Shown here: piece after piece, positions 343 through 37,075 of the stretch
Numbering within the stretch: the first letter of the stretch is position 1
How the letters are laid out: each line of letters opens with the position of its first letter
Source: a virus
Strand: one strand, 5' to 3'
IMG/VR virus record: IMGVR_UViG_3300038548_000049
Location: 1 to 37,075 of that record
Length of the DNA: 37,075 bases
Program-made: the position numbers and the translations under genes
Notes under the pieces: generated by a model
The model's database searches: none
Told to the model about the DNA's origin: nothing
Seen by the model: only the letters and a program-made list of their open reading frames with translations

Positions 343-2784
343 ATGTCTATTTACTACCACCCGCCCAGCGACACCTATTTTAGTAGTAACGAGGTGTGGG
401 TAGACGACTGCCAGCCCCGCGCGATCAGCGAGATACCCGCAGGCGTAACAATACCCGCAGGCATGGGGCTGTCTACCGTTATGCCTTCTATGGACTTCGA
501 AACCTTCAGCGCCGTAGGCTACGACATTGACCCTATGACGGGCAAAGTTAAAGGTAAAGGCGGCCAAGGCAAAGGCGGGCTACCTGTAGTCGGTACGCCT
601 GTTTACGCGGAGCATGAAAGCACCGAGGTACTGTGCCTCTACTATGATCTAAAAGACGGCCGAGGTGTCCGCGGTTGGACCCCCGGAACGCCCGAGCCTA
701 CCGACCTGATCGAACATATCCGCGCCGGCAAACCGATCGAAGCTTGGAACGTTACGTTTGAGTTTTGGATCTGGAATATGATATGCGTCCGCCGTTTGGG
801 CTGGCCTGTGCTCCGTCTCGATCAATGCTACTGTGCCATGGCTAAGTCTCGCCGTCACAGCCTACCCGGTGCGCTCGGTGGTTGTGCGAAAGTACTCGGC
901 ACCACGAACAAAGACCCCGAGGGTAATCGCCTGTTAAATAAGTTGAGCCGACCTGTCTCGGCCACTAAAAACCGTAAAGCGCCGCGCTGGACACAGTCGA
1001 CAGCATGGGACGACTACCTAAAACTTTACGCCTATTGTGGTCAAGACGTGGCGGCGGAAGACGCGGCGGCGGCTCTCATTCCCGATTTAACAGACTACGA
1101 GCGTAAAACGTGGTTAACCGATCAGAACATTAACGCCAGGGGCGTACTGGTCGAAGTAGAAAGCTTAGAGGCTTGTCTGCGTATCATGCGGGAAATGATA
1201 AAGCAATACACCCTAGAGATCTGCACGCTAACGGGTGGCGCTGTCGGCGGTGCGACTGAAGTCGCCAAGCTCACCGACTGGCTGCGCACACAACGCGTCT
1301 ACATGCCCGACATGACGGCCGACAGTGTTAAAGAAGCACTAGGCGGGGCGTTCGGCACGTTCCCCGATACGGCCGCACACCGGGCGCTAGAAATACGCAG
1401 CATACTAGCCGGCGCAAACATCAAGAAGCTACCCGCGCTTAAACTTCAGATTAACAGTGACGGGCGCCTGCGTAATCAGTATATGTATTGTGGTGCCGAT
1501 CGGACGGGTCGGTGGTCTGCCGGTGGCGTACAACTCCAAAACATAACCAGCAAAGGCCCTAAGTCGGCCATGTGTGAAAGCTGCGAGAAATATTTTAACC
1601 CAATAGGCGAAGGCTGCCCGCGTTGTGGTTCTCAAATGTGGCACAAGCTCAACGACTGGACGGTCGACGCCGTAGAACAAGCCCTAGAAGACATCAAACA
1701 TGGGCAACTCGCAGATATCGAGCTTATATGGGGCGACCCTTCTACCGTTCTTGCTGGTTGCTTGCGCGGCCTTTTCATAGCCAAAGAAGGCACCCGCTTT
1801 ATATGCTGCGACTTTTCAGCTATAGAAGCCGTAGCCGCCGCGTGCTTAGCTCGTTGCCAATGGCGGATCGACGTTTTCAACACTCACGGCAAAATATACG
1901 AAATGTCGGCCAGTAAGATCACCGGTACGCCTCTCGACGTATATTTCCAGTACAAGAAGGACAACGGGTTCGACCACCCGGACCGTAAGAAGATAGGCAA
2001 GATCGCAGAACTAGCGAGCGGGTACGGCGGTTGGGTCGGTGCGTGGAAGAACTTCGGCGCTGATATGTCGGACGACGAGATCAAACAACAGGTTTTAGCA
2101 TGGCGAGACGCTAGCCCGGAGATCGTCGAAATGTGGGGCGGACAGTTCAAGCACTGCGGCCCCGGCAAATGGGACTACCGCCCGGAACTGTTCGGTCTCG
2201 AAGGTATGGCGATTTTAGCAATACTTAACCCCGGCAAGTGCTACCACTATATCGACATATCGTACGCCGTGTTTAAAGACGTTCTATACTGCAGACTGCC
2301 TTCGGGGCGTTTCTTGACGTACCACCGCCCTAAACTGATCATGACTGAGGACAAACTCGGGCGGGACCACGAAACACAATATTACGACGGTCAACCCCAC
2401 AAAGTACGGATCTGCGATTGCTGGTCGATCACCTTTGAGGGTCACAACAGCAACGCGCAAAAAGGCCCCGTAGGCTGGCACGTCTTAGAGACGTACGGCG
2501 GTCGTTTATTCGAGAATGTGGTCCAAGCGGTAAGCGCAGACATACAGGCCGAAGCGTTGGTGCGATTAGAAGAAAACTACTACCCGGTAGTAATGCACAC
2601 CCACGACGAGGCAATAGGGGAAGTGCCTTACGTGTGGGACGAAATGGACGGCTACGACATGACGGGCACACCCCGGGGGTCGATCGATGAAATGGCCGCC
2701 ATAATGACTGAACGCCCGCATTGGGCTAGCTGGTGGCCCCTACGCGCTGCCGGTTGGGAACATTCGAGGTATCAAAAGGACTAA
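343..2784 (+). CDS. Family A DNA polymerase with 3'-5' exonuclease domain
   Basis: Replicative DNA polymerase of the phage, 813 residues. The N-terminal proofreading domain shows exo I (D51-F-E53), exo II (N136 to E140, Glu where Asp is usual) and exo III (Y231xxxD235). The polymerase domain shows motif A (DFSAIE, D490 and E495), motif B (K553 to Y561-G562) and motif C (HDE, 754-756). A zinc-ribbon-like segment with Cys 411, 414, 425 and 428 sits between the template-binding QLQN region and motif A, where E. coli Pol I has none. The start is the ATG with AAGGA seven bases upstream. Polymerases of this kind commonly travel with DUF2800 and DUF2815 genes, as here. The 5' nuclease domain of bacterial Pol I is absent. 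Confidence 0.95.
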   Translation: MSIYYHPPSDTYFSSNEVWVDDCQPRAISEIPAGVTIPAGMGLSTVMPSMDFETFSAVGYDIDPMTGKVKGKGGQGKGGLPVVGTPVYAEHESTEVLCLYYDLKDGRGVRGWTPGTPEPTDLIEHIRAGKPIEAWNVTFEFWIWNMICVRRLGWPVLRLDQCYCAMAKSRRHSLPGALGGCAKVLGTTNKDPEGNRLLNKLSRPVSATKNRKAPRWTQSTAWDDYLKLYAYCGQDVAAEDAAAALIPDLTDYERKTWLTDQNINARGVLVEVESLEACLRIMREMIKQYTLEICTLTGGAVGGATEVAKLTDWLRTQRVYMPDMTADSVKEALGGAFGTFPDTAAHRALEIRSILAGANIKKLPALKLQINSDGRLRNQYMYCGADRTGRWSAGGVQLQNITSKGPKSAMCESCEKYFNPIGEGCPRCGSQMWHKLNDWTVDAVEQALEDIKHGQLADIELIWGDPSTVLAGCLRGLFIAKEGTRFICCDFSAIEAVAAACLARCQWRIDVFNTHGKIYEMSASKITGTPLDVYFQYKKDNGFDHPDRKKIGKIAELASGYGGWVGAWKNFGADMSDDEIKQQVLAWRDASPEIVEMWGGQFKHCGPGKWDYRPELFGLEGMAILAILNPGKCYHYIDISYAVFKDVLYCRLPSGRFLTYHRPKLIMTEDKLGRDHETQYYDGQPHKVRICDCWSITFEGHNSNAQKGPVGWHVLETYGGRLFENVVQAVSADIQAEALVRLEENYYPVVMHTHDEAIGEVPYVWDEMDGYDMTGTPRGSIDEMAAIMTERPHWASWWPLRAAGWEHSRYQKD

Positions 2785-2790
2785 ACGACT

Positions 2791-2973
2791 ATGACCGAAT
2801 ACCGCCGTAAATACAAAGGCCAAACAATTTACAAATGTAAAGTTAACGGCTGTCTGCCGACCCCGTCGTGGGCCAAGTACTCCGCAATGTGTGCGCGTAT
2901 CGCCTGCGGCTCGGATCAATGTAAAGCCCACGGTAACGAGCAATGTGAACATAAGGTGAAAAAAGATGATTAA
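2791..2973 (+). CDS. Small cysteine-rich protein, unknown function
   Basis: 60 residues, starting six bases after the polymerase stop and preceded by an AAAGGA-like ribosome-binding site. It is basic at the N-terminus and has five cysteines (in KCKVNGC, MCARIACGSDQC and EQCEH contexts) plus two histidines, enough for a zinc-binding fold, though no known finger pattern fits exactly. It ends in a charged KVKKDD tail. It overlaps the next gene by eight bases, so the two are translationally coupled and belong to the replication operon. The function is not recognised; a DNA- or RNA-binding accessory factor is only a guess. Confidence 0.7.
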   Translation: MTEYRRKYKGQTIYKCKVNGCLPTPSWAKYSAMCARIACGSDQCKAHGNEQCEHKVKKDD

Positions 2974-3184
2974 ACAATGCACAGACCCCACTTTTCTAGG
3001 TACAGCCATTTACGCCACGGTAGGCGGTAAACTGTTTAAGCTCTCGCGCCTTGTGGCCGCGCGGGACAAGGAAGGGGCGGTCGAGTTTGAAACACTCAAC
3101 AGCCAGTACGCCGCGAGGTTTACAGACGAAGAAACACGGTGCGCATTCGTTGACACTTGCCGCACGATCGGGAGGCTGAGCTAA
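2966..3184 (+). CDS. Hypothetical 72-residue protein
   Basis: The start ATG overlaps the previous gene and is preceded by AAGGTGAAAAAAG. Its stop TAA shares one base with the ATG of the clamp-like gene (TAATG), which implies coupled translation of the set. The sequence is soluble-looking, with no membrane segment, signal peptide or known motif. It has charged stretches and ends in a TCRTIGRLS tail. The position between polymerase and clamp suggests a replication accessory role, inferred from context only. Confidence 0.7.
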   Translation: MIKQCTDPTFLGTAIYATVGGKLFKLSRLVAARDKEGAVEFETLNSQYAARFTDEETRCAFVDTCRTIGRLS

Positions 3185-3720
3185 TGACTAACCTAACTAA
3201 CATCTTCCGCGCTATGTTGACGGTAGCGCCTAAAAATAACGTTAAGTACTATTTAAACGCGGTACATGTCGAGCACCGCGGCGATAAATGCGTAATCGAA
3301 GCGACCGACGAAGCTATGGCGCTACGTGTGTCAGTGCCTACTTACTTCTTTAAAGGCGTACTGTCCGGCGTCGGTGACCAGATACTAATTAGGCGCGAGT
3401 CATTGGAGCAGGCAGTCGAAGAGGGCGACAACCCTAACGGCATGCTCCGCATTAACAGCCGTGTGCTGTTCCGTGGTAGAAACCTCGATCTAATGGAGGG
3501 TAACTTCCCGTTCTTAGATACGGCTAAACCACGGCCAGACGGCACGCACTCCGTACATGTCGACACCGACCGCTTAATGGTGTTGCTAGGCGCTATCAGC
3601 TTGTTACGTAAAGATTGTAAGCGTAACGTGTCGCGGCTAGGCGTGGGCGGCAACGTCGGATTAGCCGGCTTCGTTGACGACGTAGACTATGTGGCTTTTC
3701 TTGCACCCGCTAGCCGCTAG
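3184..3720 (+). CDS. Miniature DnaN-like sliding clamp (putative)
   Basis: 178 residues. By eye it follows E. coli DnaN from the middle domain onward. NNVKYYLNAVHVE (18-30) corresponds to the VRYYLNGMLFE segment, EATDEAMALR (39-48) to the VATDGHRLAV segment, and MEGNFPFLD (104-112) to the DGRFPDYRR signature. A half-length third-domain-like tail follows. A normal bacterial clamp is about 366 residues in three domains, so this is half size or less. The start used is the ATG at 3184, with GGGAGG upstream and a one-base overlap with the previous stop; an in-frame TTG 27 bases upstream is less likely. It probably tethers the phage polymerase encoded just upstream. The alternative is a clamp-domain protein that interferes with the host clamp. 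Fold assignment is fairly sure, role less so. Confidence 0.6.
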   Translation: MTNLTNIFRAMLTVAPKNNVKYYLNAVHVEHRGDKCVIEATDEAMALRVSVPTYFFKGVLSGVGDQILIRRESLEQAVEEGDNPNGMLRINSRVLFRGRNLDLMEGNFPFLDTAKPRPDGTHSVHVDTDRLMVLLGAISLLRKDCKRNVSRLGVGGNVGLAGFVDDVDYVAFLAPASR

Positions 3721-4174: not shown

Positions 4175-4568
4175 CGCGGGCTTTACCCCCGCCGAAAAAC
4201 CAAGTAGCCCAAAACCAAGTGTATTGGCGCACGTAGCGCCCTTCGTCTCTCATTATGTCCGTGAGGACGTGCGATGCTTGCCAGTTGCTACATTTCGCGC
4301 CACCTTCGAACGTGCCGTCGTTACATAGCTCGTCATGGAAGATCCAGCCGAAAGAGTTAATATCCTTCGCACTAGTCGCACCGTCGGACCGGTCGCCCTT
4401 CTCTACCCCGATCCACTTCGAATAGCGCAAGCTGTAATACGCTATGTTTTGCTTAACACGGTAGCCTAGCACTTTGCCGTCGTCGGCTTTGATCTTGTCG
4501 ACATAACCGAACACGCTCTCGCTTTTAACGTCGACAACGTGGTACGACTTCCCGTTTAAAACCTTCAC
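4158..4568 (-). CDS. DUF1353-like phage protein
   Basis: 136 residues, last gene of the leftward late operon. The central part SDGATSAKD followed by WIFHDELCNDG matches the DUF1353 pattern of a D-G-A-S/T stretch and a conserved His-Asp. DUF1353 proteins are common in phage lysis/tail-end regions; their biochemical role is not established, though the conserved His/Asp suggests a metal or hydrolytic site. The C-terminus carries a Trp/Phe-rich stretch (YTWFWATWFFGGG) that might insert into a membrane. It overlaps the endolysin stop by four bases (ATGA), so the two are co-translated, and it overlaps the convergent XhlA-like gene. Confidence 0.7.
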   Translation of the reverse strand: MKVLNGKSYHVVDVKSESVFGYVDKIKADDGKVLGYRVKQNIAYYSLRYSKWIGVEKGDRSDGATSAKDINSFGWIFHDELCNDGTFEGGAKCSNWQASHVLTDIMRDEGRYVRQYTWFWATWFFGGGKARANGMF

Positions 4569-5101
4569 AGGATCACCCTTTTGTTAAACCAACCATAGAT
4601 AAATGTTTCGTCTTTCTCCCGGCGCTCTGCTAGCTCAACGTAGAACGCGCCCTGCAGAACGTTAAGCATTTTAACCAGCGTCGACTCGTCACGGTGTTGT
4701 AAGTACGCTTGTAGCGCCCTTAGCGTTCGGCTTCCTATGATACCGTCGGCCGTCAAGTCGTCGTACAGCTCGCCTTTAAGGTTTAGCACGTTAAGCGACC
4801 GCTGTAGTATTTCGCCGGCTTTGTGTGGCCCGGTGTTGACCGCCGTGTCGACAACTTCAGCCGCTACGGGTTCCGATAACACAAGCAGGTGATCCGCGCC
4901 CACCGCATACCAAAAGATAGCCGCGTAGACCTCAAAGGCAAACGAGCGGGGTAAGCCCCGCATGTCGCCTTCGTAGCCGTAAAACCGCGCCATTTCTTCA
5001 GTAATACCGTATTTAGTCTTACCGCCGGAGTCGTCCGGGTTATCGACGAACCCGGCCTCCGCTTCGATCACTTCGTTAATAATGTCGTTTTTTAAAGACA
5101 T
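4565..5101 (-). CDS. Endolysin, glycosyl hydrolase family 108 type
   Basis: 178 residues. The N-terminal signature EAEAGFVDNPDDSGGKTKYGIT (residues 13-34) is that of GH108 (DUF847) peptidoglycan hydrolases, with E15 the likely catalytic acid. The C-terminal half (TADGIIGSRTLRALQAYL and after) looks like the peptidoglycan-binding domain usually fused to this family. There is no signal peptide or anchor, so release to the periplasm should need a holin. GGGGGT precedes the ATG at the right distance. It follows the tailspike in the late operon and is coupled to the DUF1353-like gene. Length is typical of the family. Confidence 0.88.
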   Translation of the reverse strand: MSLKNDIINEVIEAEAGFVDNPDDSGGKTKYGITEEMARFYGYEGDMRGLPRSFAFEVYAAIFWYAVGADHLLVLSEPVAAEVVDTAVNTGPHKAGEILQRSLNVLNLKGELYDDLTADGIIGSRTLRALQAYLQHRDESTLVKMLNVLQGAFYVELAERREKDETFIYGWFNKRVIL

Positions 5102-26469: not shown

Positions 26470-26718
26470 ATGAATAAGTACAGACACCAATTCGTTAGCA
26501 AATGCCCTAATAATGGGCATAGCATTATATACGTGTTGACGATTGAAACCGATAACGAAATGATACACGCCGAGCACATAACGCGGTATTGCGCGCTACT
26601 ACCTGAAGGGTATCACGAAGCAATCGCCGATAATTTAAAAAAAGCGTTCCCCGGTTTGCAAACAATGGTGGCCACTCACGACGGAGTAGAGATCACAACC
26701 GTCAGGGGAGGAAGGTGA
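26470..26718 (+). CDS. Hypothetical 82-residue protein
   Basis: Preceded by a strong AAAGGAGGAAG ribosome-binding site. The protein is a mixture of strand and helix (HSIIYVLTIETDNEMIHAEHITRYC), with two Cys and five His. It has no recognised domain. It overlaps the GTG of the next gene (GTGA). Confidence 0.6.
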   Translation: MNKYRHQFVSKCPNNGHSIIYVLTIETDNEMIHAEHITRYCALLPEGYHEAIADNLKKAFPGLQTMVATHDGVEITTVRGGR

Positions 26719-27443
26719 TCCCATACCACGGTACGCCGCTAGGGGGAAAGGAAGACCAGAAAGGGCGGTTTTTTACCGCTCGCCACGCCCTAGTCAGTTT
26801 CGCATATAAAGACGACTTAGGTATCGTCGCGGAGAAATGCCAAAGCTTCATTTTTGATAACGGGGCCTTTACGAATTTTAAGAAAGGGCACGGGGTTATA
26901 GACGTGGTCGAGTACGGGCACTGGGTCGAAGAATACGCGGCGCACCCCGGGTTCGATTGGTGCCTTATCCCTGATAAGATAGATGGCACTGAAGAAGAAA
27001 ACCGGGCCATGCTCCACGAATGGCGCGCAAAGAAGTACAGGGCGAAAGGCGTCCCAGTTTGGCACCTCCACGAATCGCTAGACTACTTAAACTTTTTAGT
27101 TGAGAACTTCGAGATAGTAGCGTTAGGCAGTTCGGGCGGTTGGAAAACCCCCGGCAGCCGTAAGTGGTGGGACAGAATGCGACTAGCTATGCTAGTCGCT
27201 TGCGATAGCAAAGGCCGCCCACGGTGTAAGCTTCACGGGTTACGAATGTTAAACCCTAAAGTTTTTACCTACCTACCTCTAGCTAGCGCTGACTCTACAA
27301 ACGCGGCGGTAAACAGCGGCGCGAAGGGTAGGTGGGGTATGTACCAACCCCCGACGAGGGCACAATGCGCGGACACCATAGCGAGCCGCGTAGAAACATA
27401 TAACAGCGCGCCGGTGTGGATCGGCCCAAGAATTTTTAATTAG
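26715..27443 (+). CDS. tRNA-guanine transglycosylase-like (DpdA-like) enzyme
   Basis: 242 residues, start GTG with GGGGAGGAA upstream. The motif series follows a TGT-type TIM barrel. FDNGAF carries D48, IPDKIDG carries D87, a PVWHLHE strand follows, and ALGSSGG (137-142) marks the base-binding glycines. KLHGLRML (172-179) comes next, then LASADSTN with D193 in the place of the TGT nucleophile. The Cys-rich zinc site of true tRNA-modifying TGTs is absent, as in the DNA-acting DpdA family. It may exchange guanine for a 7-deazaguanine in phage DNA, protecting it from nucleases, or remodel tRNA. No queuosine-pathway synthesis gene is visible, so the base would have to come from the host. Confidence 0.62.
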   Translation: MIPYHGTPLGGKEDQKGRFFTARHALVSFAYKDDLGIVAEKCQSFIFDNGAFTNFKKGHGVIDVVEYGHWVEEYAAHPGFDWCLIPDKIDGTEEENRAMLHEWRAKKYRAKGVPVWHLHESLDYLNFLVENFEIVALGSSGGWKTPGSRKWWDRMRLAMLVACDSKGRPRCKLHGLRMLNPKVFTYLPLASADSTNAAVNSGAKGRWGMYQPPTRAQCADTIASRVETYNSAPVWIGPRIFN

Positions 27444-36309: not shown

Positions 36310-36312
36310 GTT

Positions 36313-37075
36313 ATGATATTCGACGACAAACATGTAAAAATTCACGGCTGTTTCATCGTATGGGACGGGATCACACGCCCGGAACAAGGTCACGACGGCA
36401 AGCCTAAGTACAGCTTGAAAGTGGTAGTAAACCCGAATAACCCTGATCTAGCTGACATGAATAACTTAGCTAACACCACGTTACAAACGTCTAAGTTTCG
36501 CGGTCAGTTACCCGCCGGCGGTCGTATGCCAATCGGTCAGGCACGCCCCGACGAGTTTAACAACCTGTACCCGGGCTGGGTAGTTCTTGGCTGTAACACG
36601 CAACGTCTACCCGACGTCTACGACGAAAACGGCGGCAAGTTGGACCCTATGCAGTACGGCCCTATGCTGTTCGGAGCGCAACAAGTAGACGTACTAGTCC
36701 ATTGTTACGAGTACGACGCGAAGGGTAACAAAGGTATAGCGACCGGGCTAGACGCTTTTAGTATCATCGTAAGCGCTAACGCGGTGCCTCAAAACTTCGG
36801 CGGCGCTGGTATCGCAACTCAGGGCGCATTCGGTCCAAGCGGCGCAGCTCCACAGGGCGGGCAACCGCAAGGCGGCTACGCTCCTCAAGGTCAGCCACAG
36901 GGCGGGCAACCGCAAGGCGGCTACGCTCCTCAAGGTCAGCCACAGGGTGGACAACCGCAAGGCGGCTACGCTCCTCAAGGTCAGCCACAGGGTGGACAAC
37001 CGCAAGGCGGCTACGCTCCTCAAGGTCAGACACAGGGTGGACAACCGCAAGGCGGCTACGCTCCTCAAGGTCAGA
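36313..37075 (+). CDS. Single-stranded DNA-binding protein (DUF2815-like), N-terminal part
   Basis: Starts ATG 36313, three bases after the nuclease stop, and runs off the right edge; its end is at 1-275. The first 160 residues ([54 protein letters not shown], and [14 protein letters not shown]) have the character of DUF2815/gp2.5-like OB-fold SSBs. The remainder is a series of 15-residue [15 protein letters not shown] units, at least five on this side. The role is coating single-stranded DNA at the fork; the low-complexity tail may mediate protein contacts or self-association. The complete length is unknown because the repeat number at the junction is uncertain. Confidence 0.85.
36850..37074. 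repeat. 45-bp tandem repeat array, right part
   Basis: Five complete 45-bp units at 36850-36894, 36895-36939, 36940-36984, 36985-37029 and 37030-37074, with one further base. Units 1-2 read GGCGGG near the start and 3-5 GGTGGA; unit 5 begins ACA like the later units of the left part. All are in frame with the SSB gene. Codon choice is nearly fixed between copies, so the array expanded recently or is homogenised by recombination. Confidence 0.95.

Follow-up and report, generated by a model that had tools for sequence, protein, structure and literature searches.

Genomic Context of a Half-Size Clamp Gene

The window analyzed here is the whole 37,075-nt stretch of virus DNA in IMG/VR record IMGVR_UViG_3300038548_000049 (positions 1 to 37,075). 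Close to its start, after a family A DNA polymerase gene and two small genes and in the same direction as the polymerase, lies a gene for a protein that corresponds to about half of the bacterial sliding clamp DnaN. Its reading frame opens with an ATG at 3184 and runs without interruption through 178 residues to a stop codon ending at 3720. The features of the locus are:

343 to 2784, plus strand: family A DNA polymerase (PHROG 17, E 1.3e-82), upstream of the half clamp and in the same direction
3170 to 3175, plus strand: Shine-Dalgarno-like GGGAGG, 8 nt upstream of the half-clamp ATG (from the sequence)
3184 to 3720, plus strand: half-size DnaN-like clamp protein, 178 aa (intact ORF, PHROG 3007, family profile, AlphaFold2 and structural alignment)
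3184 to 3537, plus strand: equivalent of DnaN domain II, residues about 1–118, two helix-plus-strands units (alignment and predicted secondary structure)
3238 to 3261, plus strand: NVKYYLNA, counterpart of the clamp motif DVRYYLNG (alignment)
3304 to 3321, plus strand: TDEAMA in subsite I where the family has TDGHRL, that is G174E, H175A, R176M and L177A in E. coli numbering (alignments)
3499 to 3516, plus strand: GNFPFL, counterpart of the GRFPDx motif (alignment)
3538 to 3717, plus strand: equivalent of the C-terminal half of domain III, residues about 119–178, one helix-plus-strands unit (model and family C-terminal profile)
3703 to 3717, plus strand: C-terminal APASR where the family has MPMRL, replacing pocket residues M362, M364 and R365 (alignments)

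The ORF directly upstream (2966–3184, a 72-aa frame) had no match in PHROG or Pfam profile searches. A PADLOC search gave no match. On the 3′ side the half clamp is followed by a few short frames and then by a lysozyme-like gene on the opposite strand (4565–5101). The slot that the half clamp occupies, after the polymerase and two small genes, varies among relatives. Elsewhere in the window, a queuine tRNA-ribosyltransferase-like gene (26715–27443) matches PHROG 887 at E 1.5e-61 over 212 residues of the 509-position profile. Both ends of the contig (1–276 and about 36310–37075) share one tandem repeat, located in the tail of an SSB-like protein; the record is thus probably a nearly complete circular genome that was broken within this repeat.

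The Window Protein Is Related to DnaN

Profile searches matched the 178-aa protein to PHROG 3007 (E 3.8e-7) and to PHROG 947, “DNA polymerase processivity factor” (E 1.8e-4, aligned at profile positions 135–272 of 368). A family profile built from 62 other half-size phage clamps, with the window protein left out, scores it at 31.6 bits; the best of 5000 shuffles reached 6.7 bits and none of the other ORFs in the window scored above 2.2 bits. Generic DnaN models recognize the protein weakly and below their cut-offs, with 15.4 bits for PF02767 (cut-off 27) and 14.8 bits for TIGR00663, the curated model of bacterial DnaN (cut-off 137.65). The resemblance to DnaN is not due to chance, and we are highly confident that the protein is a DnaN-derived half clamp. 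A preliminary description of this DNA, made from the sequence alone, had pointed to segments at 3184–3720 that parallel the middle domain of DnaN and to a GxFPxx signature; the profile matches confirm the former, and the latter is present at residues 106–111.

One and a Half Domains With a Predicted Clamp Fold

An AlphaFold2 model of the window protein as a monomer, with 31 family sequences as input, has a pLDDT of 87.3 and a pTM of 0.85. It aligns along its full length with residues 132–366 of E. coli beta (Z about 14.8, 165 aligned residues, rmsd 2.9), and every top match shown in a PDB search with the model was DnaN or a DnaN-containing complex. The model of L078, a more typical member of the family, is likewise well folded and aligns with E. 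coli 126–366 at Z 15.1 and rmsd 2.8. Structure prediction, which had been named beforehand as a test capable of overturning the clamp reading, therefore returned the clamp fold.

Within the domain II part, secondary structure prediction places helices at residues 4–14 and 71–79 and strands at 26–52, 66–70 and 87–101; the domain III part has a helix at 128–141 and strands at 150–155, 157–164 and 167–173. The whole-family alignment left it ambiguous whether the first or the second half of domain III is kept. A separate C-terminal profile, built from 55 half clamps, decided for the second half: it scores E. coli 316–366 at 24.4 bits versus 3.7 bits for 269–302. Judged by this comparison, half clamps run from domain II straight into the C-terminal half of domain III. 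The earlier observation that domain I is absent and domain III incomplete is hence upheld and made more precise. A long ORF at another locus (L092), considered as a possible fusion, was rejected because its N-terminal part resembles read-through upstream of the real ATG.

The window protein shares with bacterial DnaN the fold of domains II and III and the positions of the YYLN, TD and GxFP motifs. Unlike DnaN, a dimer of three-domain chains, it has one and a half domains per chain, lacks the interface-bearing regions and has most of its pocket residues changed. The dimer-interface residues of E. coli beta include Ile78, Phe106, Ile272, Leu273, Lys74, Arg96, Glu298, and Glu300 (PMC11139829). 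All of these lie in regions that half clamps lack, namely domain I and the first half of domain III, and the window protein is therefore unable to build a ring of the bacterial type. The residues of the partner-binding pocket listed in the same paper lie in regions that half clamps keep.

A Widespread Phage Family Under Conflicting Names

The half-size clamp is not unique and has hundreds of counterparts on record. Searches (tblastn) with half clamps matched 96 and 236 GenBank phage records, mostly of Salmonella, Escherichia, Klebsiella, and Vibrio phages, so that at least 236 such records carry half-clamp matches. In a scan of IMG/VR, at least 257 of 600 candidate stretches encode relatives among the matches listed. 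We kept 80 of these loci and classified 58 as half-size and 15 as full-length among the matches listed; relatives were collected with a motif adjoining the pocket, and members with a changed pocket may be under-sampled in these counts.

All 31 aligned half clamps, the window protein included, match PHROG 3007. Of 14 control genomes, 9 also gave a match to this profile, which presumably falls on their DnaN. Named members comprise Snoke gp006 (Kagunavirus), Bcep781 gp15, Sodalis phage SO-1 gp7, an Akiravirus protein and the “putative beta-clamp” of Serratia phage Eta. Like these proteins, which are 170–200 aa in length, the window protein consists of domain II and the C-terminal half of domain III, has no domain I and adopts the clamp fold in prediction; unlike them, it does not keep the TDGHR and MPMR pocket motifs. 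Its blastp match to the Snoke protein extends over 95 residues only, at 34%. With full-length phage clamps of PHROG 947 (for example, the 371-aa gp103 of Arthrobacter phage Lymara), which carry all three domains, it shares homology in domain II.

Annotations within the family vary between “DNA polymerase III sliding clamp,” “RusA-like Holliday junction resolvase” and hypothetical protein. The Bcep781 copy is annotated as “DNA Pol III b subunit fragment,” the SO-1 record says “possible moron,” and some GenBank records already use “DNA polymerase III beta subunit (fragment).” We rejected the RusA resolvase identity implied by the name of PHROG 3007, since the predicted structure is a clamp fold along its full length. 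The members of PHROG 3007 seen here were all DnaN-like half clamps, and the RusA name has spread into RefSeq phage records. Half clamps are thus present under conflicting names in hundreds of sequenced phages, laboratory phages of E. coli and Salmonella among them.

The Kagunavirus copy has been called a beta clamp, in a passage that does not remark on its size (PMC9825357). In open-licence papers we found no description of half clamps as a class, no statement of which part of the clamp they keep and no family-level account of the kind given here (domain II plus half of domain III, with the pocket kept and the ring parts gone). Searches of IMG/VR, GTDB genomes and INPHARED with peptide patterns, tblastn and a degenerate DNA pattern revealed no close relative of the window protein. 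It adds a new, divergent member to a phage family that is known but has been poorly described.

The Pocket Is Conserved in the Family and Altered in the Window Protein

We compared the 16 pocket residues given in PMC11139829 across 41 half-clamp clusters with less than 70% identity to each other, after removing the columns of the motif that had seeded the search. Identity to E. coli was 73% at the pocket residues and 16% elsewhere (P 3e-8); in full-length phage clamps, the same test gave 83 and 24%, respectively. A conserved pocket is a common trait of PHROG 3007 members, not a formal criterion, and the window protein is without it. It keeps 4 of the 16 residues and its 41 relatives keep 7–14, its own C-terminal pocket positions being assigned from an alignment at about 15% identity.

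From these comparisons the family appears to have a pocket but no ring, and the retention of only four pocket residues suggests that the binding partner of the window protein has probably changed relative to the family. A pocket kept while the ring-making regions are gone provides a direct and testable idea of what half clamps do. The window protein shows the other side of the question, the role of a half clamp once its pocket has changed.

An Apparently Incidental Family A Polymerase Neighbor

The preliminary description regarded the pairing of a clamp with a PolA-type enzyme as unexpected. Among 13 half-clamp carriers checked, five encode a PHROG 17 polymerase (the window, the IMG/VR genome G005, Snoke, Bcep781, and SO-1) and eight have no match to that family; a Pfam search of 12 of the 13 agrees. 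Conversely, of 11 phage records that encode related polymerases, SppYZU01 alone gave a half-clamp signal, and a weak one. G005 alone among the IMG/VR polymerase relatives has a clear half clamp, at a distance of about 11.5 kb from the polymerase, and the record with an 83%-identical polymerase, which may be incomplete, has none. Since only 5 of 13 carriers have the polymerase and the half clamp is missing from most phages whose polymerases are closest, the pairing looks like a coincidence of an accessory slot and loses the significance first attached to it.

A motif scan found no QLxLF-type clamp-binding motif in the window polymerase, and the idea that this enzyme uses the half clamp through such a motif was dropped. 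Between its LQNI motif and motif A (about 1555–1641), the window polymerase contains a zinc-ribbon-like CxxC..CxxC insertion, and an insertion of this kind is common to the polymerases of loci L001 and L002.

What Half Clamps May Do

Taking together the identity, architecture and predicted fold of the protein and a pocket that is conserved across the family but altered in the window copy, we tentatively favor, at a little under even chances, a reading in which the family consists of monomeric clamp-pocket proteins that act as decoys or adaptors for clamp-binding motifs, the window copy having a different partner. In this reading the phage-borne DnaN fragment would stay monomeric and would not encircle DNA as a processivity ring. 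Its pocket would bind clamp-binding motifs on proteins of replication and repair, from host or phage, for example the clamp loader subunit delta or a polymerase. The window protein keeps the predicted fold and has most pocket residues replaced, so that its partner is probably not that of its relatives.

A precedent comes from a monomeric mutant of E. coli beta, which has lost Pol III tethering and whose binding to delta is about 50 times tighter than that of the dimer (PMC11139829). By analogy, a pocket module on its own could compete effectively. We also count in favor of a decoy or adaptor the eight carriers lacking the polymerase match and the placement of the gene in several phages, where it stands isolated, moron-like, and opposite in direction to the head genes. 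The family might equally well have kept its pocket for a genuine role in processivity, and the altered pocket of the window protein weakens the claim that it binds canonical motifs. A bolder version, which we hold to be doubtful, has phages widely carrying monomeric, ringless pocket proteins that capture delta or clamp-binding polymerases and so redirect replication, with the pocket of the window protein rebuilt for a different partner.

A related proposal is that the half clamp is a dominant-negative partner that docks on host beta or on the clamp loader, stops ring closure or loading and thereby shuts down host replication. The tight binding of delta by monomeric beta, the moron-like placement and the many carriers without a match to the polymerase family of the window all fit this proposal. 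However, no interface strand is kept for pairing with host domain I, and in the window copy the residues of the delta-binding pocket are changed, so that we consider it unlikely. The earlier suggestion that the protein might block the host clamp accordingly holds up as plausible for the family and less so for the window protein. If the decoy idea is right, a parallel would be Twort gp168 (PDB 7evp), a phage inhibitor of the host clamp, since both would then target the clamp system of the host; our match to 7evp is to its beta clamp chain (377 residues) and not to gp168.

Still less likely is that the window copy derives from a captured half clamp that no longer functions and is decaying. The loss of most of the conserved pocket residues, the lack of close relatives in our searches and the absence of the gene in the record whose polymerase is 83% identical would suit a relic, but the 178-codon frame is intact and preceded by a good ribosome-binding site, and the fold is retained in prediction (pLDDT 87).

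The preliminary description had also raised a new ring arrangement. One form of it would be a tetramer serving as processivity clamp of the phage polymerase. The numbers would allow it, as each modeled chain has three helix-plus-strands units and four chains would supply the twelve found in DnaN dimers and PCNA trimers, and the gene lies just downstream of the polymerase in the same direction. Against this, the regions bearing the ring interface in E. coli are missing, and the lone half-domain would have to pair in a hypothetical way. The second helix of domain II, which would line the hole, is absent from the model of the typical family member, although present in that of the window protein. 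The polymerase itself has no recognizable clamp-binding motif, and relatives of it with up to 83% identity occur in records without a half clamp. We judge a new ring to be improbable for the window protein. Poorest of all are the prospects of the clamp fold having been reused in the phage replication operon as a scaffold for unrelated binding that involves neither ring nor pocket, which would suit a fold kept while pocket residues were replaced and a position in a variable slot after the polymerase and two small genes, but for which no candidate partner was identified.

Other Reduced Clamps

E. coli is reported to make a shortened beta, beta-star, after UV irradiation from an internal start (Paz-Elizur 1996, Skaliter 1996). 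The window protein resembles beta-star in missing domain I. It differs in that beta-star retains domains II and III in full and comes from the full dnaN gene, while in the window protein half of domain III is gone and the gene stands alone, preceded by the 72-aa ORF described above and not by the remainder of a dnaN gene recognizable in PHROG or Pfam. A 215-aa phage protein at locus L066 (3034–3678) starts at the domain II motif and has a complete domain III; it resembles beta-star in extent, or could be a truncated or frameshifted full clamp.

In some relatives a second family of about 200 aa is encoded just upstream of the same family A polymerase and carries clamp-like TDGHR motifs (L002 1214–1819, its equivalent in L003, L017 5297–5908 and L127 1498–2223). 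Two of these proteins also have PD- and MRV/VRV-like motifs. Profile support for the second family is weak. This family is possibly an even more reduced clamp-pocket protein.
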